DNA of 27,691 nt from positions 1 through 27,691 of the IMG/VR virus record IMGVR_UViG_3300025131_000322. One strand, 5' to 3'. The position numbers were made by a program, and so were the translations under genes. Of this stretch, positions 16,501 to 26,957 are shown in pieces (position 1 is the stretch's first letter; each line of letters opens with the position of its first letter). The stretch comes from a virus. The notes under the pieces were generated by a model. That model worked only from the letters and a program-made list of their open reading frames with translations. It made no database searches and had not been told where the DNA came from.

Positions 16501-17667
16501 CGTGAAAGCACGTTTTCCGCCGGCGCCGGCATTACCCAGTTGATGAATATCGGGGACATACCTATATCCCTTGACGCCTTTCAAGTATGGTACAAAGACT
16601 ATGTAGTGAAACGAGATCGAGATAAATATTATTTCTTGCATTTTGTTAAAGATATTTGTGCTTCATTAATAACCAAAGCTTTGGCTTCTAAGTGTTTTGG
16701 ACCCGACGTTAGAATGACACAACGATTCGATGCGCAGCCGATAACTGTTTTCAACACGAAAGACTTTGGTCCCAACAAGCTCGTCACCATGCGTCGGTTG
16801 AACGCTGAAAGGAAAAGGCTGAAGTCCACCACCCCTCCCGAAAAGGTGGGGATGGGCCTCGTATTGTTGTCGACCGACTCTAAACCCAAGGGCTTAAATG
16901 GAATATATGAGGAGGATGTTGAGCAGGGAGTCTATCATCATTACTTGGGTAGTCAGTGTGGACTTGTAAAAACCATTAACTTTAATCGGGAAAACCAACC
17001 CTATTTGAGAGAATCTAAAATTCAAAAGGCCGGGAGTCTTGGGGCCGAACAGTTGCGGGAGCTCTACTCCGCCGAGCTGGAACTCTACGGTAACACATTA
17101 TATAAAAATGGACAGTATGTTTATATAAATCCGCGTCTTGTGGGGGCATCGAAGGACGAACTGACGATCTTGGGGCTGCATGGGTATTATCTAATAACGA
17201 GCGTGAGTTCCACCGTTACTGAAAACTCTTTTGATGTTTCGGTGAAGGCCTTACATGAAGGAATAGAGTTTGGCGATGAAGTTCTTATGGAACCTGAAAC
17301 ATTTGGCGACGACCTTCAAGCCGAAAATACGCCCTATGAGAGTCCCAAAGGCAAGAAGAAGAAGGCCGAAGCACCGCCTCGGGCCGCCGGGACTCCACCC
17401 CCGCCGGTGACTGCGACGACAGCGGAAGAGCGCGCACAGCAGGCCCTACAAGACGATATCGCTGCAGGCGTTACCGACCCGGCGGTGCTGGAGGAACACG
17501 GGTTTAACATTAGAGAAGCAGCCCGCCTTGCAGACTATGCAGCCGGCATACACGAGGACCCCACCGACGCAGACCGCCTGAACCAGGAACTGTTCCGCGC
17601 CCATAACGCCGATCCGTATGTCCAAGACCACCCTGATCAGACATGGCACACACCGGGGGGACCCTAA
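13546..17667 (+). CDS. Large virion structural protein, probable baseplate hub component (1373 aa)
   Basis: This is the largest gene of the window. I cannot match the whole protein to a known family. Several regions resemble baseplate hub proteins: near residue 595 IKSFSWSLDGVQPAEVDNNI, near 730 LFLQQTRHEFKFNQDGSLNL, and near 1200 LGLHGYYLITSVSSTVTENS followed by FDVSVKALHEG, which looks like the C-terminal beta domain of hub proteins ('GYYxVxxV...FxVxVxAxxEG'). A Lys/Glu-rich coiled segment lies near 770-815. The last 120 residues are a low-complexity linker (Lys-, Pro-, Ala-rich) plus a helical acidic tail. Its place after gp53-like and at the end of the tail block supports a baseplate role. 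It overlaps the next gene by one base (TAATG). A fusion of several baseplate proteins is possible. Confidence 0.6.
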   Translation: MTNTPVTTPETEAAFIALLQYYYDIEAMQLAWNHFKQHWSKYQADVALGTTHNGTALVKNLSEAEAWIGPADGTIRTAGDQASYFLYQYTTFKRIGVVTGINPKYIEEYRTTAEGWKTALGNWWRDQHEEMWNLDERKGKGIQFGTDRSKWQLDVDDKRPIVVPKFPNDKSLLRVVLPESDEKGRDEMEADGGTALYFFTPSMLNYIARKGAAGPAQNPYRNLYKALLELINELEELTFLDLKGMSGARHERGRGKRTYDDMKRYRRRVDKDPESANPYTLAANLVGGGANLAQIDDPPNPLKKGFYRKSTKGFKNNSPIKPGSQVPGIKNYGVAHYAGNVHVRPYVALSVAQGHGWDTDDNNFKGFSAWMKENISGNQGKGAAKLFAVDTAIMALIEHLADKVFMGTATSSTGFKGDDYRTDRRNKRLDMIKGFFGDSTAPTSGEVGERSVAEKVTSKTVQVKAKKQNLVPMDFQCFLLEQIRFLSNGHNSNYKHIMKLGTDRQPGLVKNKLNKTLSTDQVQALLELCPSTQALFTPYLKISRVDYDEYGKPTGVEKPLKIPNFLSGEALFDLASGLAPRVPGAGIKSFSWSLDGVQPAEVDNNISATLELYFQSVSDFFASSMQAGEDEASYLDLVISSPGTAKKKEKEEDPTKKGDAVKCGRRVADMLARKYEGSNYRIKVVAGWADPGVEALGRALGEDADRYTAYNISEAIENSKMSLFLQQTRHEFKFNQDGSLNLSIEYQASLTGMLVGPTADILGPSGAKIAEEIKAKEKVVDKMKKDEDKDDEKYKEELEELKKLRGQDKLQKYKKVLAKVYDSEHIYALAVNPQEFLLPRMGDLTAKERAERAKRKNSTTPKVVMGPSAKNTAQTELLDALADPNASEDEVADEMSSNMTMRYDKLEENPGHVTHVPFMFLGDLLDAVLSQMEANHEGSLNLLFFLSEVEMIDPLAALQIKNIGQIMKCGQDIRDAAFVQALTDSRESTFSAGAGITQLMNIGDIPISLDAFQVWYKDYVVKRDRDKYYFLHFVKDICASLITKALASKCFGPDVRMTQRFDAQPITVFNTKDFGPNKLVTMRRLNAERKRLKSTTPPEKVGMGLVLLSTDSKPKGLNGIYEEDVEQGVYHHYLGSQCGLVKTINFNRENQPYLRESKIQKAGSLGAEQLRELYSAELELYGNTLYKNGQYVYINPRLVGASKDELTILGLHGYYLITSVSSTVTENSFDVSVKALHEGIEFGDEVLMEPETFGDDLQAENTPYESPKGKKKKAEAPPRAAGTPPPPVTATTAEERAQQALQDDIAAGVTDPAVLEEHGFNIREAARLADYAAGIHEDPTDADRLNQELFRAHNADPYVQDHPDQTWHTPGGP

Positions 17668-19022
17668 TGAACAGAAATTTCCTTGACTACGACGAATACG
17701 ATGTTGAGCATCCGGTGGCCACTAATACCTTATCCTCTGAGTCCACCTATTTTCAGCGCTCTTTGTATAGAGAAGCAATTTATCCTAGCAATTTGCCTGC
17801 CCCCTTAGACATGTGGTATGGAAAAATTTATTATGGCAAAATTGATCAACTCCAAAATAGTATCATCGTCCGTACGGAAAATTTGAAGCCCGTTATGGTA
17901 AGTGTGGGAACCAATATTTACGCCTTAGATGCTCTGGTTGATGCTTTTGTGGCTTTTTCAGCGCACATGAGGCGGGCGCAGCTTGGAGGATTTCTTTCGA
18001 CGTTGGGTAATCCTGACTTAGTAGATGTGATGGCACACAAAGGCTACGTCGACTCCACCCAGGCATATCGCCAGTTTACTAATAGTTTTTATGGGGCTTT
18101 TAATGCAAAAACACGACCAGATGAAAAGAATAAGATTGACGATTTTCAATCTTTTTTGAGTGTATATACTCCATATTTGAAAAAGGTGTCGGCCGCGATG
18201 GGGGTGACAAAAAGCACCTTCATCTTAAGTCGTCAGCTTGATATACATAGTTCAGGGCTGGCCCTCTCCATAAGCAGCGGCCCCCCGGACAAGGATGCTT
18301 ATAAATATAAGAATTTTATTGACGATCCCAATTTTGCTTTTTACGCCGCATCTGCCAAAAAATTTGGTCTTATTATCGACAAGAATCGACCGTGGATATT
18401 AGCTTTAGATCTTTTTAGTAATGCTGCGCTAAAATATATAGGAAACTACTATAATACAGATTTGGGTCATGGCTTAATCGATAAAGAAACCTTTTTTTAT
18501 TGTAACTACACTCCTACTTATTTGACCGATATCGAGGAGCTTAAAACTATTCTTGTTAATTCATATCTAACGTTTGTGGCCCAGAATCCTTACAGAGAAG
18601 AGAGAGTATATCTTCCACATTGTGATAAATATGGGGTGGAGTTAGAAGACCGGATCCCGCGGCCGGCTACTGGGCTACGCGCTGACCTGACTGATGGCTA
18701 CATGATGAATTTTTATTTGCAACTGCGCCATGCGGAGGCCCAACAACCCTTCCGCCTAACTCCACAGCATTATTTGGATTTAAATAATATATACACGGTT
18801 CAGGCTCTCAAAAACATCACCCCTCTTCAGAATGGGGCTCGGTGGATTAATTCTCTTTTCCGAGATTATATTTATGGGCGTAATTATCTAAAGTATGCAA
18901 ATAGAAAAAGTGTAAATCATTTATTAAACCTTGACACGGGCCCCAGCTTTGGTACAATAACAACTACAGGCGCCCCTTCTCCAACGGCGGGTGGCACTGG
19001 GGGTGGTGGCACCTCTTATTAG
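17667..19022 (+). CDS. Hypothetical protein at the end of the structural block (451 aa)
   Basis: I do not recognise this family. The chosen ATG overlaps the stop codon of the hub-like gene (TAATG) and has a G-rich stretch (gggggga) upstream; an in-frame ATG at 17643 would add eight residues. The protein is rich in Tyr, Phe, Asn and Leu, with no signal peptide or clear membrane segment. Notable parts are FSAHMRRAQLGGFLSTLGNP, KKFGLIIDKNRPWILALDLF, and a tail of Thr, Gly, Pro and Ser. It is the last gene before the replication block and is probably co-transcribed with the baseplate genes. A virion structural role is most likely from position, but a replication-associated role cannot be excluded. 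Confidence 0.6.
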   Translation: MNRNFLDYDEYDVEHPVATNTLSSESTYFQRSLYREAIYPSNLPAPLDMWYGKIYYGKIDQLQNSIIVRTENLKPVMVSVGTNIYALDALVDAFVAFSAHMRRAQLGGFLSTLGNPDLVDVMAHKGYVDSTQAYRQFTNSFYGAFNAKTRPDEKNKIDDFQSFLSVYTPYLKKVSAAMGVTKSTFILSRQLDIHSSGLALSISSGPPDKDAYKYKNFIDDPNFAFYAASAKKFGLIIDKNRPWILALDLFSNAALKYIGNYYNTDLGHGLIDKETFFYCNYTPTYLTDIEELKTILVNSYLTFVAQNPYREERVYLPHCDKYGVELEDRIPRPATGLRADLTDGYMMNFYLQLRHAEAQQPFRLTPQHYLDLNNIYTVQALKNITPLQNGARWINSLFRDYIYGRNYLKYANRKSVNHLLNLDTGPSFGTITTTGAPSPTAGGTGGGGTSY

Positions 19023-19033
19023 GCGGAGGTCGA

Positions 19034-20224
19034 GTGACATTATTTCAACTATTAGATACCAAGACCGAATGTATCGGGTACTATGCTAATAATATGATCA
19101 ATTCCCAGCAAGAGCTGCCCTGCGCCGGCGAGACGTGGGATTATTCTCCACGACTACCTGGCAAGATGTATGAACTGGCGCGCCTTTATAGCTCCGGAGC
19201 CTCTCTCACAGACGTTTGTCCAGCAGAGTTGAAGACCGACTGGGAGCGCATTAAGAAGACGCTTAAATCGTGCCTGAAAGCCTTTGGAGCATCCCGTCTT
19301 TCTTTAGATGAAAATTGTTTTTATGATGTATTGCCCCAATATTTTCTCTTTGAATATCTAAACGCCAAAAACAAGATTACTCAACATGTATTAACCACGT
19401 ATCAACGCCCTCACAATTATGAATTTATGTATAATTTAGTGGAGATGCTTTCAGATATTCGTGCACGGCCCCTACACATCGAAATTGATCCTATTAAACA
19501 TCTGTTAAGTTCGGTGGGGGGGAAGAACTTTCACCGCACCCTTCGAAACATTAAACACGCATGCGCTTATAATGCATGGGGAACCGTAACTGGGCGTTTA
19601 TCTACTGATCCCGGTACATTTCCCATTTTAACAATGAATAAAGAATTCCGCGCATGTGTACAGCCTCAGAACGATTGGTTTGTTGAACTGGATTTTAACG
19701 CTGCCGAACTTCGGATACTGTTGGCGCTCACGGGAACCGAGCAGCCGACTACTGACATCCATGATTGGAATCGTAAGAAGGTTTTTAAGAATACTTTAAG
19801 TAGGGACGAAGCTAAGGTGAAAACATTCGCATGGTTGTATTCCGAGCGAAACCATAGTGATCTGGACCGACTTTATAACAAGGATTTAGTGCGAAATAAG
19901 TACTGGGATGGCTGTAAAATTGAGACAGACTATGGCAGAATAATAGAGAACGTAGACGCGCACCATGCGCTCAATTACATCGTTCAAAGCACCACAATTG
20001 ACATGGTGCATGAGCAGGCTTACAAAGTTTATGAGCTTTTGAAGGGGAGAAAGAGTCATATTTCATTTTTGATTCATGATGCTGTGTATATCGACCTCGC
20101 GGAGGAAGACCGCTATGAAATTTTAAATTTACTTGACACCTTCAAGAACACACGTTATGATATGTTCAAGGTCAACGTTTCTGCCGGCCGAAATCTTGGT
20201 GAAATGAAAGGATTGAGACTATGA
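19034..20224 (+). CDS. Compact family A DNA polymerase (polymerase domain only)
   Basis: The protein extends DNA strands and is probably the phage replicative or repair polymerase. The motifs of the Pol I family are clear: TGRLS at 186-190; motif A D220-FNAA-E225-LR (equivalent to E. coli D705 and E710); motif B with R257, K261, F265 and Y269 at the exact spacing of R754, K758, F762 and Y766; the N314...Q318-S-T region; and motif C H348-D349-A350. The usual second carboxylate of motif C (E883) is Ala here. With 396 aa it is much shorter than T7 polymerase (704) or Klenow fragment (about 605), and no 3'-5' exonuclease domain is visible. The start is GTG with ggaggt upstream. Its stop overlaps the next gene (ATGA). 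Confidence 0.88.
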   Translation: MTLFQLLDTKTECIGYYANNMINSQQELPCAGETWDYSPRLPGKMYELARLYSSGASLTDVCPAELKTDWERIKKTLKSCLKAFGASRLSLDENCFYDVLPQYFLFEYLNAKNKITQHVLTTYQRPHNYEFMYNLVEMLSDIRARPLHIEIDPIKHLLSSVGGKNFHRTLRNIKHACAYNAWGTVTGRLSTDPGTFPILTMNKEFRACVQPQNDWFVELDFNAAELRILLALTGTEQPTTDIHDWNRKKVFKNTLSRDEAKVKTFAWLYSERNHSDLDRLYNKDLVRNKYWDGCKIETDYGRIIENVDAHHALNYIVQSTTIDMVHEQAYKVYELLKGRKSHISFLIHDAVYIDLAEEDRYEILNLLDTFKNTRYDMFKVNVSAGRNLGEMKGLRL

Positions 20225-20544
20225 AAGAAAAGAAACTCTACTATAAACTTGTCCGCGACCGTATTCCAGAGATTATTGAAGAGAGTGGGAAGGAATTTTC
20301 AGTATGCCAAGTACCAGAGGAACGCCTCCAAGACTACGCTATGCGAAAATTGCAAGAAGAAGTGATGGAGTTTGTCGAGAATCCGTGCGCGGAAGAAGCA
20401 GCTGATATCATGGAAATAATGAATTTTATTTGTTACCGCTTGGGTATTCACGACCATACTATTGTCGCGTATGCAACTGCAAAGCGTGTCAGTCGCGGAG
20501 GGTTTGATATGGGGTATATTTTGGAGTGGGTTGACGAAAAGTGA
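20221..20544 (+). CDS. MazG-like nucleoside triphosphate pyrophosphohydrolase (COG4997 type)
   Basis: Enzymes of this all-alpha NTP-PPase superfamily hydrolyse nucleoside triphosphates to monophosphate and pyrophosphate. The N-terminus YYKLVRDRIPEII is a hallmark of the COG4997 subgroup. The metal-binding pattern is present as E46-E47-x2-E50 in the first helix and E59-x2-D62 in the second (EEAADIMEIMNF). The length of 107 aa is normal. The ATG overlaps the polymerase stop by four bases (ATGA), and its own stop overlaps the next start (GTGA), so the three genes are probably translated together. In phage biology such enzymes are linked to dNTP pool cleaning or to alarmone control; the exact substrate cannot be seen. 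Confidence 0.85.
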   Translation: MKEKKLYYKLVRDRIPEIIEESGKEFSVCQVPEERLQDYAMRKLQEEVMEFVENPCAEEAADIMEIMNFICYRLGIHDHTIVAYATAKRVSRGGFDMGYILEWVDEK

Positions 20545-21383
20545 AGATCGTAGGACTTGGAAGGGCTGGATGCAGCATAGCGAAAACTTTTTCTAAGTTT
20601 CCGCAGTACGAAACCTATGGCATTGATACGTGTCGCGACGCAGATATTACCATCAAGACTAGAGAGAGCCACGAAGCCTATGACCAACATTTTCCTAATC
20701 TGAAGAAGCGTCTCAAGGTTACTAATAGCGAAGTATGTGTGGTACTAGCCGGGACGGGCGTGATCTCGGGGGGCATCCTTCGTCTGTTAGAGCAGTTGCA
20801 AGGCAATAGAATTCGACTGGTCTATATTCAACCTGATTTGGCTCTAGCGAGTGAAGTACAAAAGATGCAGGAAAAAATTGTAAGAAACGTCTTGCAAGAG
20901 TACGCGCGCTCGGGCCTCTTGGAAACTATGTATCTGATCGATAATCAAATGGTGGAACGGGGCATTGGGGATGTTCCCATTATGGGATACTATGATGTAC
21001 TCAATCAGGCTATTGTTAATACTCTTCACATGATTAATATTTTTGAAAATAGCGAAGCCGTGATGGGGAGCTTTATCCGTCCCTCTCCGGTCAGTCGGAT
21101 TGCCACGATTGGAATCGTGGACATTGAAGAAAAAGAAGAAAAATGGTTTTATGACTTGACAAACGGTCGTGATGTGGTATACTACTATGGTATCAATGAG
21201 GAAGAGCTTAAGGAGGATGGCACTTTGTTTGGAAACATTACCACCTATGTGAAGGCGCAAATTATGCCGGGAGTTAATGTTTCGTATGGTGTTTTTCAAA
21301 CGTCCTATGAACAAAAATATTGTTATTGCATTAAGTATTCTTCTATGGTACAATCATATTTAGACGATCAGGATATTAGCTGA
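20541..21383 (+). CDS. Divergent tubulin/FtsZ-like protein
   Basis: The 280-aa protein resembles FtsZ in layout. The N-terminus MKIVGLGRAGCSIA matches the first FtsZ strand and glycine loop (IKVIGVGGGGGNAV); GIDT at 27-30 matches FAVNT. VVLAGTGVISGG at 67-78 occupies the place of the tubulin signature loop GGGTGTG in a reduced form. Next, VYIQPDLALASEVQKMQEK resembles VTKPF...EG..R...A, and MYLIDNQMV...DVLNQAI..TLHMI resembles the LI.IPNDKL...DAF..AN.VL...V region. The acidic catalytic loop in the C-terminal part of FtsZ (NxDxxD) is not visible, so GTPase activity is doubtful. The start is GTG, overlapping the previous stop. A different Rossmann-type fold remains possible. This is my own recognition by eye and not a database match. 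Confidence 0.55.
   Translation: MKIVGLGRAGCSIAKTFSKFPQYETYGIDTCRDADITIKTRESHEAYDQHFPNLKKRLKVTNSEVCVVLAGTGVISGGILRLLEQLQGNRIRLVYIQPDLALASEVQKMQEKIVRNVLQEYARSGLLETMYLIDNQMVERGIGDVPIMGYYDVLNQAIVNTLHMINIFENSEAVMGSFIRPSPVSRIATIGIVDIEEKEEKWFYDLTNGRDVVYYYGINEEELKEDGTLFGNITTYVKAQIMPGVNVSYGVFQTSYEQKYCYCIKYSSMVQSYLDDQDIS
21326..21354 (+). promoter_or_regulatory. Possible sigma70-type promoter for the SSB gene
   Basis: TTGCAT (21326-21331) and TACAAT (21349-21354) are separated by exactly 17 bases. The -10 box matches five of six consensus bases, the -35 box only three. It lies inside the 3' end of the tubulin-like gene, about 65 bases before the SSB start. A transcript from here would begin with the hairpin at 21364-21387. 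It is weak evidence alone, but the position suits a gene that needs its own expression. Confidence 0.33.
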
Positions 21384-21417: not shown

Positions 21418-22197
21418 ATGGGTATCAATTTAGATAAGATGAGAGAGAAGCTCTCGTCACTACGCGGAGAAGGAAACTCCTCAAATGACACATTCTGGCG
21501 CCCCGAAGACGGGGAACAGACTATTCGAATCGTTCCGACAGCGGACGGAGACCCCTTCAAGGAAATGTGGTTTCACTACAATGTCGAAAAGGGCGGCTTC
21601 CTATGTCCCAAGCGCAACTACAGTGACGAGTGTCCTGTGTGTGAGTTCGCCTCACAGTTGTGGCGCGAAGGCGCAGACAACAACGATGAGCACAGTAAGA
21701 AGGTCGCAAAGTCCCTCTTCGTGCGGCAGCGTTTCTTCAGTCCTGTGATGGTTCGCGGGGAAGAAGAGAGAGGCGTACGCATATGGGGCTATGGCAAGAC
21801 TGCCTACGAGAATCTTTTGACTCTCGTGCTCAACCCAGAGTATGGTGATATCACCGATACAGAGACAGGCACCGACCTGCAGATGACCTACGGGAAGCCG
21901 CCAGGGGCTTCCTTCCCACAGACGAAACTTGTACCTCGACGTCGGTCATCCCCGCTTTGCGAGGACCTGACCCCCGAGAAGTGCGCTGAACTTCTTGATG
22001 CTATCCCCGATTTTGGGGGGCTGTTTGATAGAAAGTCGACTGCTGATGTACAAACAATTCTTGATAATTTCGTCAACTCTCAGGTTGATGATCCCGAGAG
22101 CGTAAGTAGTGAGACTACACGTTATGGGACTTCGGCGTCTACCGACACCGAAACGAATGCTGTTGATGCCGCTTTCGCAGAGCTTGGCGCTCTCTAA
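21418..22197 (+). CDS. Single-stranded DNA-binding protein, gp32-like
   Basis: The protein coats single-stranded DNA during replication and recombination and works with UvsX and the helicase. A zinc site of the gp32 type is visible: H53, C63, C72 and C75 (FHYN...FLCPK...ECPVC), the same His-Cys-Cys-Cys order as T4 gp32. The N-terminal basic segment (LDKMREKLSSLRG) suits the cooperative-binding domain, and FWRPEDGEQTIRIVP begins the OB-type core. The C-terminal 40 residues are Ser/Thr/Asp/Glu-rich and end in a short acidic helix, as expected for the protein-interaction tail. At 259 aa it is slightly shorter than T4 gp32 (301). A strong ribosome site aaggag precedes the ATG. Confidence 0.88.
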   Translation: MGINLDKMREKLSSLRGEGNSSNDTFWRPEDGEQTIRIVPTADGDPFKEMWFHYNVEKGGFLCPKRNYSDECPVCEFASQLWREGADNNDEHSKKVAKSLFVRQRFFSPVMVRGEEERGVRIWGYGKTAYENLLTLVLNPEYGDITDTETGTDLQMTYGKPPGASFPQTKLVPRRRSSPLCEDLTPEKCAELLDAIPDFGGLFDRKSTADVQTILDNFVNSQVDDPESVSSETTRYGTSASTDTETNAVDAAFAELGAL

Positions 22198-22257: not shown

Positions 22258-22446
22258 ATGACTACTGAAACGAACCGACTTGAGGAGCTTATTACACTGC
22301 TTGAGAATACTCGCGCAGATCATGAAAAGTTCTTTGTCCGCGGCAATAATGCTGCCGGCACGAGGATTCGCAAAGCAATGCAAGAAGTAAAGACATTAGC
22401 TCAGGAACTGCGGACCGACGTCCAAGAGACAAAAAACGCAAACTAA
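22258..22446 (+). CDS. Histone H1-like (Hc1 family) small DNA-binding protein
   Basis: The 62-aa product matches the short Hc1-type histone H1-like proteins found in several bacterial groups. The key segment is RGNNAAGTRIRKAMQEVKTL (residues 28-47) followed by AQELRTDVQETK. In the family, 'kGNkAAGtRxRKxmQelkxlaqelRxevqelk' is the conserved pattern. The N-terminus (LEELITLLENTRADHEKFFV) also fits. The long Lys/Ala-rich tail of chlamydial Hc1 is missing, as in other short members. The protein could bind or organise phage or host DNA, which is inference. A strong ribosome site (aaggaaggg) precedes the ATG. A repeated hairpin element lies upstream. Confidence 0.72.
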   Translation: MTTETNRLEELITLLENTRADHEKFFVRGNNAAGTRIRKAMQEVKTLAQELRTDVQETKNAN

Positions 22447-23015: not shown

Positions 23016-23177
23016 ATGTGGGCTTGTATGGTGGGGTGCGCATGCTTCTTCGTAGTATTTATGATTATGGACACGCGCCGCGAGATAAGAGAGATTGGTG
23101 AACAGGTGAGCATGCTGCAGCAAGACTTTATATCAGAGATTAACGATCGCTATGGAGATCTCCGTGGCAAAGAGTAA
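23016..23177 (+). CDS. Small predicted membrane protein (53 aa)
   Basis: This short frame begins with MWACMVGCACFFVVFMIM, a continuous hydrophobic stretch long enough for one membrane helix, then DTRREIREIGEQVSMLQQDF, an amphipathic helix suited to a short coiled coil, and ends in RYGDLRGKE. The frame starts 9 bases after the previous stop and overlaps the start of the UvsX gene by up to 26 bases, as is common for real phage genes. The Shine-Dalgarno sequence is weak (gcgaag). Function unknown; a small anchor or scaffold protein is possible. Support comes from the bipartite protein pattern and from filling the only gap in this block. Confidence 0.5.
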   Translation: MWACMVGCACFFVVFMIMDTRREIREIGEQVSMLQQDFISEINDRYGDLRGKE

Positions 23178-24285
23178 ATCAAAAGCGGGGAAAGTTTCGA
23201 TCGACGGGCTTCGCACCCTCATTAATAAAACATCCGGACTCGAAGTTGCCCACAACTTAAACCAAGCAAATCCCACAGAAGTAAAAGAATGGATTCCTAC
23301 GGGTTCACGCTGGTTGGACTCTATTGTTTGTAGGGGGCAGCTTGCTGGTATTCCTGTGGGTAAATTCACGGAGATTGCTGGCCTGGAATCAACCGGCAAA
23401 TCTTTTATGGCCGCACAGGCGGCAGGGAATGCCCAGAAGATGGGGATGAATGTTATCTATATGGATTCTGAATCGGCGATTGACCCCGGCTTCCTTGAAC
23501 GCGCTGGGTGTGATATAAACGAACTTATCTATGTTCAGGCACAGTCGGTTGAACATGTACTAGAAACTGTTGAAAACGTTTTGAAGTCAGGAGCAGAAAG
23601 AACCCTGTTCATCTGGGATTCCTTGGCCATGACTCCAACTATCACAGATGTGGAGGGGGACTTCAATCCTCAGTCCACGATGGCAATGAAGGCGCGCATC
23701 CTCTCCAAGGGGATGTCTAAACTAACCATCCCGATTGCAAATACCAAGTCAGCCTTCCTGGTTCTCAACCAGTTGAAGACCAACATCCCCCAAGGACCAA
23801 ATGCTCGCATCGTCGCAATGACGACCCCCTTCATCACCCCCGGCGGGAAAGCCATGCACTATGTATATTCACTGCGCGTGTGGCTTACGGGACGCAAGGC
23901 CAAGTCTGCTTTCATCGAAGACGAGAGCGGCTTCCGCATCGGCTCGGAGGTGAAGGTCAAACTTGAGAAGTCTCGTTTCGGCACACAGGGGCGCAACTGC
24001 GCCTTTAAGATTCTCTGGGGTACCGACGAGGTTGGTATCCAAGATGCCGAGAGCTGGCTGGAAGCAATCAAGGGCTCCGACAATCTTAAACAAGCAGGCG
24101 CCTGGTTCTCCCTGGTCCATAAGGATGGTAAAGAAGAGAAGTTCCAGACTGCCCATTGGATTGAAAAGCTTAAAGACAAGAAGTTCAAGAACCGAGTGTT
24201 CGAGATTATGGATGAAGAGATCATTCGTAAGTTTGACACGCGCGAGGGCAGCGCTGAGGATTTCTACGACGTAGATAAAGAATAG
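23152..24285 (+). CDS. UvsX/RecA-like recombinase
   Basis: The ATP-dependent recombinase forms filaments on single-stranded DNA and drives strand exchange for recombination-dependent replication and repair. Walker A is GLESTGKS (77-84), Walker B is LFIWD (152-156), and a catalytic acidic site is in DSESAID (105-111). NQLKTNIPQG and the following segment FITPGGKAMHYVYSLRVWL correspond to the RecA loop 2 region. At 377 aa it is close to T4 UvsX (391). An alternative start, GTG at 23164 (giving MAKSKSKAG...), has a better ribosome site (ggag at 23154-23157, spacing 6) than the ATG at 23152 and may be the true one. It partners with the gp32-like SSB upstream. Confidence 0.9.
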   Translation: MEISVAKSKSKAGKVSIDGLRTLINKTSGLEVAHNLNQANPTEVKEWIPTGSRWLDSIVCRGQLAGIPVGKFTEIAGLESTGKSFMAAQAAGNAQKMGMNVIYMDSESAIDPGFLERAGCDINELIYVQAQSVEHVLETVENVLKSGAERTLFIWDSLAMTPTITDVEGDFNPQSTMAMKARILSKGMSKLTIPIANTKSAFLVLNQLKTNIPQGPNARIVAMTTPFITPGGKAMHYVYSLRVWLTGRKAKSAFIEDESGFRIGSEVKVKLEKSRFGTQGRNCAFKILWGTDEVGIQDAESWLEAIKGSDNLKQAGAWFSLVHKDGKEEKFQTAHWIEKLKDKKFKNRVFEIMDEEIIRKFDTREGSAEDFYDVDKE

Positions 24286-24599: not shown

Positions 24600-25568
24600 A
24601 TGAAAAGAGTAATGATCGTTGACGCTCTCAACGCCTATTTCAGGGCGTTTATCGTCAACCCGAGCCTGTCTACTCACGGGCAGCCCATCGGTGGCTTAAA
24701 AGGCTTCCTAGGCATCTTGCAGAAGCTGTGTCGGGACATCAAGCCAGACACGGTGATGATTATCTGGGATGGCCCCGGCGGCAGCCGCAAGAGACGAGAA
24801 CAAAATAAGAACTATAAGGCCGGCCGCAAGCCCATTCGAGTCAATCGACAGACCGATTTGACTGATGAGCAGCAGCGAGCCAATATGGCGTGGCAGCAAC
24901 TGCGTCTGATGGAATACCTCAACGAGTTACCAGTTGTACAACTACGTTTTGATGAAGTAGAGGCCGACGACGTAATAGCATACGCTACGCAAGTCGAACA
25001 GTTCAAGGGTTGGCAGAAGGTAATTGTGTCGAGTGACAAGGATTTCATTCAATTGTGTAATGATGAGACAGTATTGTTTCGGCCCATCCAAAAGAAGGTT
25101 CATAACAAGTTAAACATTGTGGAGGATTTTGATATCCATCCTCGCAACTTTGCGATGGCCCGGGCTATTGCCGGGGACCCCTCGGACAATCTTAAAGGAG
25201 TGCCTAGAGCAGGCTTGAAAAGTATTTCAAAAAACTTAAAATTTCTCAAAGAGGATAAGGACGCGACATTGCAGGAGATTTTTGATTTTTGTCTCAAAAG
25301 TGATTCTAAAGCCAAATTTTTCACGAACGTTTTGGCTCACAGAGATGTAATTATAGAGAACTATAAATTGATGCAACTTTACGCTCCCGCACTCTCGTTG
25401 CAGTGCCGCGACAAGGTGCACTATGCACTGGATAATTTTGAATACGATTATAATAAAACCGAGGTTATTCGCATGATGAATCAAGATGGGTTTGGGGTGT
25501 TTAACTGGGATGATCTACACGCCACAATGAATCGGTTTTGTACCGAACGGCCGCTGCAAGACAAGTAG
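24600..25568 (+). CDS. 5'-3' exonuclease / flap endonuclease (T4 RNase H / FEN family)
   Basis: The enzyme removes RNA primers and 5' flaps during lagging-strand synthesis. Family motifs are in order: VDALNAYFRAF (D8), WDGPGGSRKRRE (D57, with basic residues), EVEADD (119-124), VSSDKDF (D146, D148) and GDPSDNLKGVP (192-202). The last group begins the helix-three-turn region, although the usual GIGPKTA is changed to RAGLKSI. The length (322 aa) equals the normal range (T4 RNase H, 305). Because the DNA polymerase here has no exonuclease domain of its own, this separate enzyme probably does primer removal. The ATG is preceded by aggggat. Confidence 0.9.
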   Translation: MKRVMIVDALNAYFRAFIVNPSLSTHGQPIGGLKGFLGILQKLCRDIKPDTVMIIWDGPGGSRKRREQNKNYKAGRKPIRVNRQTDLTDEQQRANMAWQQLRLMEYLNELPVVQLRFDEVEADDVIAYATQVEQFKGWQKVIVSSDKDFIQLCNDETVLFRPIQKKVHNKLNIVEDFDIHPRNFAMARAIAGDPSDNLKGVPRAGLKSISKNLKFLKEDKDATLQEIFDFCLKSDSKAKFFTNVLAHRDVIIENYKLMQLYAPALSLQCRDKVHYALDNFEYDYNKTEVIRMMNQDGFGVFNWDDLHATMNRFCTERPLQDK

Positions 25569-25574
25569 GGTGAG

Positions 25575-26957
25575 ATGGTGACACGGGCGATGAAAATTAA
25601 GAGCGACTCTGTAAACTTTTCCAAGTACGGCAAGACCTTCCAGGAAAAGCTTTGCATGGTAATTTTAGATGATCGCTCATTCGCCGATCAAATTGAAGAG
25701 GTACTCGATGTAGGATTCTTGGAACTTAATTATCTTAAACTCTTCTTGAATAAAATTTTTAACTATCGGAAGAAATATGGCGTTCATCCGTCGCGCGATA
25801 TTATGAAAACCATACTTCGATCAGAGCTCGATAATGAAAATGAGCTTACCGCCAAGCAGGTACGAGAGTTTTACGTGCGTAGTCAGGTGACCGACTTAAG
25901 CGACATGGAGTATATAAAAGATACTTCCCTAGATTTCTGTAAGAAGCAGAACCTAAAGTCAGCAATGGTAAAGTCTATTCAGTTACTCCAGACTTCATCC
26001 TTTGATGAAATTTCTCAGGTCATTAATGATTCTTTAAAGCTCGGCATTAATGGTGATGAGGGCTATGATTATAAGAAAGACTTTGAAGAACGTTTTAAGC
26101 CGCGATTTCGCAACCCCATCAGTACGGGGTGGGATTTGATTGACGATCTGTGTAAAGGGGGCTTGGGACAAAAAGAACTTGGGGTGGTTATAGCGCCTAC
26201 TGGTGCAGGCAAGAGCATGGCTCTGGTCCACTTGGGAACTGAAGCACTCAAGCAAGGGAAAACGGTTGTTCATTATACTTTGGAACTCCAAGATACTGTA
26301 GTGGCTTCTCGCTATGATTCCTGTCTTACGCAAATTCCCCTCCAAAATTTGGTGGCCTTCAAAGAAAAGATTTACGAAGAGGTACAGGACATTGAAGGTA
26401 AATTAATTGTTAAAGAGTATCCTACGAAAACAGCCACCACACAGACGATTCGAAATCATTTAGAAAAACTTAAAATGCGTAATACTGTAGTAGATATGAT
26501 TCTTATTGACTACGGCGATCTGCTACGCCCTCTGCGTTATCTTAAAGAGAAGCGCAATGAGTTGGAATCTATTTATGAGGAACTCCGAGCTATCGCTACC
26601 GAGTATCAAGTACCGGTGTGGACGGCATCCCAGACTAATCGTTCGGGCCTTAATGCCGAAGTTATTACAATGGAGTCTATTTCAGAAGCCTTTAATAAGT
26701 GCTTTGTATCTGATTTTATTTTTACTATATCACGAACAGTAGAAGATAAAATGACTAATAGGGGGAGAGTGTTCGTGGCTAAAAATAGAAATGGACCTGA
26801 TGGACTCGTGTTCCCACTTTTCATGGACACGTCCAATGTTTGTATTAAGGTTCTTGAAGCTTCAGAAGATGATGAAATTATTGAAGTGAGCGCCAAGAAG
26901 CAAAAAGAAGATCTATTTGAAAAATATAAGAAATTTAAGCAGAACAAGGGAGGTTAG
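25575..26957 (+). CDS. Replicative DNA helicase, DnaB/gp41-like
   Basis: The hexameric helicase unwinds DNA at the phage replication fork. The N-terminal part (residues 1-150) is helical. The RecA-type motor follows: Walker A APTGAGKS (207-214), catalytic E237 in TLELQ, Walker B MILIDYGDLL with D312, and TASQTNR (350-356) with the conserved Gln. A Lys-rich C-terminal tail ends the protein. The length of 460 aa is close to T4 gp41 (475). It starts 6 bases after the exonuclease stop with gggtgag as ribosome site; an alternative ATG at 25590 is possible. No primase is visible in the window. Confidence 0.92.
   Translation: MVTRAMKIKSDSVNFSKYGKTFQEKLCMVILDDRSFADQIEEVLDVGFLELNYLKLFLNKIFNYRKKYGVHPSRDIMKTILRSELDNENELTAKQVREFYVRSQVTDLSDMEYIKDTSLDFCKKQNLKSAMVKSIQLLQTSSFDEISQVINDSLKLGINGDEGYDYKKDFEERFKPRFRNPISTGWDLIDDLCKGGLGQKELGVVIAPTGAGKSMALVHLGTEALKQGKTVVHYTLELQDTVVASRYDSCLTQIPLQNLVAFKEKIYEEVQDIEGKLIVKEYPTKTATTQTIRNHLEKLKMRNTVVDMILIDYGDLLRPLRYLKEKRNELESIYEELRAIATEYQVPVWTASQTNRSGLNAEVITMESISEAFNKCFVSDFIFTISRTVEDKMTNRGRVFVAKNRNGPDGLVFPLFMDTSNVCIKVLEASEDDEIIEVSAKKQKEDLFEKYKKFKQNKGG

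Follow-up and report, generated by a model that had tools for sequence, protein, structure and literature searches.

In FtsZ, the T7 loop (GxxNxD) reaches into the nucleotide pocket of the next subunit and starts hydrolysis, and N165 is the asparagine of the T6 loop that contacts guanine (PMC8456036). Tubulin folds are also linked to mobile DNA. PhuZ, or phiKZ TubZ, of nucleus-forming jumbo phages has a functional GTPase site, and its filaments depend on an extended C-terminus (PMC3678025, PMC4244570). TubZ of Bacillus plasmids and phages, a protein of about 400 aa, has a catalytic T7 loop and ends in a C-terminal tail (PMC5322520). FtsZ of Nitrosopumilus maritimus, a tubulin-family protein with neither the T7 motif nor the canonical signature loop, does not polymerise, as was shown in yeast (PMC3684127).

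Here we describe a viral gene, labeled TUB, that resembles each of these systems in part. It is encoded in the virus record IMGVR_UViG_3300025131_000322, positions 1 to 27,691, and this whole stretch of 27,691 nucleotides is referred to as the window (Table 1). As in FtsZ, an N-terminal domain is followed in TUB by the core helix and a C-terminal domain, and the T1 glycines and asparagines equivalent to N165 and N186 are present, but TUB has no GxxNxD T7 loop and no helices H8 and H9, its T4 signature is reduced, its length is only 280 aa, and it is coupled to a phage polymerase rather than to division genes. The likeness to PhuZ lies in a tubulin fold encoded by a phage and in a likely link to phage DNA; however, TUB shows neither the GTPase site nor the extended C-terminus, and its tail is predicted to be disordered and is absent from deep relatives. 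A tubulin fold and a link to mobile DNA are likewise shared with the longer, T7-bearing TubZ, while the neighbors of TUB are polA, a gene for a 107-aa protein, and gp32. N. maritimus FtsZ, in contrast, is a cellular archaeal gene with no link to a polymerase. The best viral fold matches in BFVD, A0A6J5RW92 ("FtsZ" of an uncultured Caudovirales phage; TM(query) 0.71) and A0A8S5UFG9 ("Cell division protein", ctcyQ27; TM(query) 0.61), are phage-encoded as TUB is, but they are much longer (452 and 387 aa, respectively) and show 13-15% identity.

Table 1. Positions of genes, motifs and overlaps in the window and in related sequences.
Feature	Sequence	Position	Strand	Size, match or basis
Protein encoded upstream of the polymerase	window	17643..19022	+	459 aa
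Minimal family-A DNA polymerase	window	19034..20224	+	396 aa; PF00476 E 8.5e-13; phrog_17 E 6.9e-16
ATGA, overlap of 107-aa gene start and polymerase stop	window	20221..20224		4 bases
Putative all-alpha MazG/HisE-type NTP pyrophosphohydrolase	window	20221..20544	+	107 aa
GTGA, overlap of TUB start and 107-aa gene stop	window	20541..20544	+	4 bases
TUB, predicted tubulin/FtsZ-fold protein	window	20541..21383	+	280 aa; GTG start
T1-like glycine loop GLGRAG, residues 5-10	window	20553..20570	+	conservation over 105 representatives
PQY motif, residues 21-23, directly past first helix (H1-S2 region)	window	20601..20609	+	
T4-like signature loop GTGVISGG, residues 71-78	window	20751..20774	+	
QEYARSG motif, residues 119-125, end of long fourth helix	window	20895..20915	+	
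N135, at the alignment position of E. coli FtsZ N165 (in T6 loop, contacts guanine)	window	20943..20945	+	
N155 in core helix H7, at the alignment position of E. coli FtsZ N186	window	21003..21005	+	
Residues 170-186, place of T7 and H8: loop without GxxNxD and without helix	window	21048..21098	+	predicted secondary structure, conservation
C-terminal tail DDQDIS, predicted disordered	window	21363..21380	+	pLDDT <50 for residues 274-280
gp32-type single-strand DNA-binding protein	window	21418..22197	+	PF08804 E 2.5e-14
Histone H1-like Hc1 ORF	window	22258..22446	+	62 aa; PF07432 E 1e-19
UvsX recombinase	window	23152..24285	+	phrog_97 E 1.2e-54
5'-3' exonuclease	window	24600..25568	+	PF02739 E 1.8e-27
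DnaB/gp41-type replicative helicase	window	25575..26957	+	phrog_19 E 9.7e-70
TUB-family gene with degenerate pocket	L235	7188..8036		
Gene resembling D12-class adenine DNA methylase	L063	6692..7531	+	by eye
129-151 aa protein of TUB-less records	L117	7867..8256		
129-151 aa protein of TUB-less records	L118	1346..1801		
129-151 aa protein of TUB-less records	L119	7374..7763		

Predicted fold of TUB

Sequence libraries miss the fold of TUB, and its relation to known families is faint by sequence alone. Pfam, PHROG and NCBIfam gave no match at their cut-offs, and a sequence search against the PDB found nothing. The Pfam Tubulin profile (PF00091, curated cut-off 33 bits) did not match the window protein at E<=1 and gave no match in the nine large contigs described below; the relative L230 reached 13.1 bits (E 0.12), which is below the cut-off.

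An AlphaFold2 model of TUB, based on an alignment of 49 relatives, was obtained with pLDDT 88.6 and pTM 0.87, and a second AlphaFold2 model, for a relative that is 55% identical to TUB, had pLDDT 88.9 (pTM of the two models 0.87-0.88). When the TUB model was compared with the PDB using Foldseek, 580 chains were matched at E<=0.001 (best E 1.1e-11, TM(query) at most 0.71). Each of the 50 matches listed is an FtsZ, a TubZ or a tubulin, with FtsZ the best, and the 50 matches listed for the second model consist of the same families (best E 9.7e-12). The order of elements in the models, which were named by comparison with FtsZ, is S1-H1-S2-(H2)-S3-H3-S4-H4-S5-H5-H7, then S7-S8-H10-S9-S10. Both tubulin domains are thus predicted, namely a Rossmann-like N-terminal domain and, past the core helix H7, a C-terminal domain with strands S7-S10. 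Additionally, a profile of 105 diverse relatives was compared with a small FtsZ alignment, which gave a score of 34.5 over 251 columns in both domains; the controls, 40 column shuffles and three alignments of unrelated real families, scored no more than 20.0 and 16.6, respectively. An earlier note, made from the sequence of the window, had proposed a tubulin/FtsZ-like protein, and the two independent fold predictions and the controlled profile-profile comparison agree with it. We also looked in the models for a different Rossmann fold or a missing C-terminal domain, which the note had named as grounds for giving up its proposal, and found neither.

The N-terminal part of TUB, with GxGxxG followed by D29, fits the signature of the TrkA_N domain, and at E<=1 the TrkA_N profile finds 11 of 27 family members, with a best E of 6e-5. 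TUB could accordingly be an NAD(P)-binding Rossmann enzyme that is not tubulin-like, which we consider very unlikely. The window protein reaches only 13.8 bits against the TrkA_N cut-off of 23.8, over residues 3-32 only, and genuine FtsZs also match NAD-binding profiles weakly (PF13460, E 0.0015-0.0021). No NAD-binding structure is found among the 50 PDB matches listed for either model, the C-terminal domain S7-S10 is present in the model, and both guanine-recognition positions carry asparagine in 103-104 of 105 representatives. By its predicted fold and its pocket residues, TUB belongs to the tubulin/FtsZ superfamily. It is not FtsZ, a canonical tubulin GTPase or PhuZ, as judged by the T7 region, helices H8 and H9 and the curated sequence score, and within the superfamily it is most aptly described as a new, divergent family, a large and previously unnamed branch.

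Conserved pocket and lost catalytic loop

Conservation was counted over 105 representatives with less than 80% mutual identity. The loops G5-L-G-R-A-G10 and G71-T-G-V-I-S-G-G78, which the earlier note had quoted from the frame at 20541-21383, are present as described in this 280-aa protein, and they cannot be attributed to chance because they are kept across the 105 relatives. In the T1-like loop, G7 is invariant (105/105) and G5 and G10 are each found in 104/105; in the signature loop the counts are 91/105 for G71, 100/105 for G73, 101/105 for S/T76 and 89/105 for G77. The T4 signature GGGTG(T/S)G is reduced in the family to G-x-G-x-(I/V)-(S/T)-G, and two relatives, L230 and L238, have a GGGxTSG form (SGGGRTSGA and AGGGQTSGA, respectively). 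Asparagine is found in 103/105 at N135, in 104/105 at N155; D29 is kept in 104/105 and Y150 in 99/105. At the end of the protein, a DDQDI(S/G) tail is kept in most relatives of the close clade.

The pocket is kept in 104/105 representatives, so nucleotide binding appears to be important. In a single sequence, L235, it is degenerate (G5A, G10A, N135Y, N155S), yet the gene still lies between polA and gp32, with which a structural role would fit better than an enzymatic one. The most invariant positions of the family are Y23, Q119, R123, S124 and H163, and to our knowledge none of them is a known pocket residue. Within the PQY motif, Q22 is found in 102/105 and Y23 in 105/105, and QEYARSG, with Q119, R123 and S124 each in 105/105, is the most conserved stretch of the family. 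The location of both motifs outside the pocket suggests that they form a protein-binding face.

No acidic catalytic loop had been visible to the earlier reader, and none emerged from the alignment. Between H7 and S7 (residues 170-186) there is no T7 motif GxxNxD(xxD/E) and no acidic column that is invariant over the 105 representatives, the best being position 172 with D/E in 78/105. Helices H8 and H9 are missing from the predicted secondary structure of both models; the loss of T7, H8 and H9 was read from this prediction and from the alignment rather than from model coordinates. One candidate for the FtsZ T7 asparagine, N166, which is possible in the profile alignment, was rejected: both models place it inside H7, and another residue stands where the Asp would be. 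Since the pocket is kept and the hydrolysis element is lost, the nucleotide would serve as a ligand and not as fuel. An unusual route of hydrolysis may nevertheless be conceivable, given the frequent acid at position 172.

The main rival to an accessory or scaffold function is that TUB forms a cytoskeletal filament which positions or segregates replicating phage DNA in the manner of PhuZ and TubZ, perhaps as a static GTP-bound anchor. The tubulin fold, the presence of TubZ among the best structural matches, the conserved nucleotide pocket and the location of the gene in a replication operon are all in line with a filament. Loss of the catalytic loop is compatible with it as well, because GTPase-dead PhuZ D190A still polymerises with GTP and gives stable filaments (PMC4244570). 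However, TUB is missing H8 and H9 along with T7, the loop directed at the next subunit (PMC8456036), and a dynamic GTPase filament is made less likely by the lack of the T7/H8 element. There is also no C-terminal extension like that of PhuZ, for TUB ends 13 residues past the last strand. Moreover, N. maritimus FtsZ, in which the T7 loop and GGGTGTG are absent, fails to polymerise (PMC3684127), and in TUB H8 and H9 are absent too. We regard a filament as possible but unlikely.

Linkage to the DNA polymerase

In the window, polymerase, 107-aa gene and TUB are joined by consecutive 4-base overlaps. The earlier note had TUB sharing such overlaps with both other genes, which is correct for the 107-aa gene and incorrect for the polymerase in the window; TUB overlaps the polymerase directly in relatives without the 107-aa gene (L063 and deep relatives). 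Similarly, a replication block that had been described as T4-like does contain gp32, UvsX and a gp41-type helicase, but its polymerase is of family A and not of T4's family B.

The proposed link to a phage polymerase turned out to be universal and stronger than the earlier reader could have known. Among distinct proteins with enough flanking sequence, polA lies upstream of TUB in 127/127 and gp32 lies downstream in 125/125. In 113 of 126 distinct loci, the start of TUB overlaps the nearest upstream gene or lies within a gap of <=1 base from it, and in 77 the overlap is exactly 4 bases. Because many loci had been found through TUB itself, we ran the reverse test with the polymerase as bait. Two scans with the polymerase alone gave 52 and 69 loci that extend more than 1.3 kb downstream, and TUB is encoded in all of them (52/52 and 69/69, 121/121). 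Each scan had more than 570 matches, of which the 80 best were used, and the two sets may share a few contigs. Wherever a locus recruited in this way could be checked, TUB is an obligate neighbor of the polymerase; more distant polymerases may lack it. TUB is co-inherited with polA and gp32, as pairwise identities correlate (r 0.88 for TUB-polA, r 0.93 for TUB-gp32), and it is under purifying selection (median dN/dS about 0.08, 38 pairs). Nine contigs of 102-204 kb contain one TUB match each (9/9). Conservation of neighbors in a core module can also have another cause, shared expression timing alone.

Several observations concern the surrounding genes. The 396-aa polymerase has conserved catalytic residues D220, K261, Y269 and D349 and leaves little space for an exonuclease domain. 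The 459-aa protein encoded upstream of it keeps its syntenic place in most relatives, but its sequence changes quickly (about 22-45% identity) and has no family match. The Hc1-like ORF lies directly past gp32 and occupies the same place in most close relatives, while at this place L063 has an ORF that by eye resembles a D12-class adenine DNA methylase. Insertions of about 1-1.5 kb separate the TUB-family gene from gp32 in L031, L037, L114 and L116.

The 107-aa protein is probably an all-alpha (MazG/HisE-type) NTP pyrophosphohydrolase. This function, which the earlier note had assigned, finds agreement in an invariant EE..E/EE..D..E pattern of the MazG/HisE type, whereas profile matches are weak (best PF04447, E 0.0044, in 1/15 members). 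TUB follows the 107-aa gene directly in 90/95 distinct loci of the close clade, mostly with a 4-base overlap, and its guanine-type pocket is conserved, so the two proteins might together act as a sensor or regulator of the nucleotide pool (e.g. dGTP/GTP) that feeds the polymerase. We think this improbable, since the 107-aa gene is present in only 77/127 distinct loci with more than 1.7 kb upstream, the rest keep TUB beside the polymerase, and the enzyme assignment is weak. The 107-aa gene was also rejected as an obligatory partner of TUB, as many relatives do not have it.

The linkage bears equally on the idea that TUB is a decoy whose nucleotide face binds host FtsZ filaments and, having no T7 face, caps them and stops division. 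Conservation of the nucleotide (top) face with loss of the opposing T7/H8 side is the geometry expected of a cap, and inhibition of FtsZ is common among phages, as with lambda Kil (PMC3961180) and T5 Hdi (PMC10714956). Known phage inhibitors of FtsZ are usually small, accessory, early genes, however, and TUB is a core gene that every relative keeps in coupling with the polymerase and that is co-inherited with gp32; this obligate bond to replication genes argues against a primary role against FtsZ, and the most conserved motifs, PQY and QEYARSG, are not pocket residues. On balance a decoy seems improbable.

TUB as a substitute for a sliding clamp was considered and dropped. Neither gp45 (PF02916) nor a beta clamp (PF02767) was found in the nine contigs of 102-204 kb, but three related phages without TUB have no gp45 match over the cut-off either, and the absence of a clamp therefore says nothing about TUB.

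Distribution of the family

The first scan of IMG/VR identified 88 relatives, a profile scan 163, and a deeper profile scan at least 578; among the 105 representatives, the most distant share about 31% identity with the window protein. We found no TUB in 50,697 records of cultured phages searched with the window protein and a distant relative, and none in the GTDB genomes searched. TUB is absent from Microcystis phage Mel-JY01, a Flavobacterium immuto phage and LR756508, whose gp32 and polymerase are related. Three phage records without TUB (L117, L118 and L119) instead share, between polymerase and gp32, a protein of 129-151 aa with the pattern CTF(T/S)...HRKKxxNTLYTIN. The TUB family belongs to an uncultured, mostly marine lineage of T4-like phages with a minimal family-A polymerase, where the term marine is taken from the names of metagenome contigs and from phage relatives. 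A full-text literature search found no description of the family.

Proposed role

The universal linkage, the overlapping frames, the single copy and the purifying selection point to a core role in replication. From these observations and from the predicted structure we infer the function of TUB as a whole, and we propose with moderate confidence that it is most likely a guanine-nucleotide binder without tubulin-type hydrolysis, probably an accessory or scaffold protein of the replisome. TUB would be made in amounts coupled to the polymerase, if the overlapping frames reflect translational coupling. It would bind GTP or another guanine nucleotide, presumably without hydrolyzing it in the manner of tubulin, and this nucleotide could serve as a structural cofactor or as a sensor of GTP levels. 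Through PQY and QEYARSG, TUB may contact the polymerase, the single-strand DNA-binding protein, or both, as the gene order would suggest. More tentatively, TUB could be a tubulin fold that has been turned into a constant subunit or cofactor of the polymerase, in which GTP is structural or regulatory, and thus represent a new class of accessory factor.

The tubulin/FtsZ superfamily is known as cytoskeleton, and TUB would be a stripped-down member of it, without the hydrolysis machinery and tied to a phage polymerase. Its many relatives in IMG/VR notwithstanding, it goes unseen in Pfam, PHROGs and NCBIfam and in the collection of cultured phages. If TUB forms filaments, it would be a further phage tubulin system and would test whether filaments can manage without T7 and H8. 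If it helps replication, tubulin folds would have a role other than in filaments, and an abundant viral lineage would have a replisome part that has gone unrecognised.
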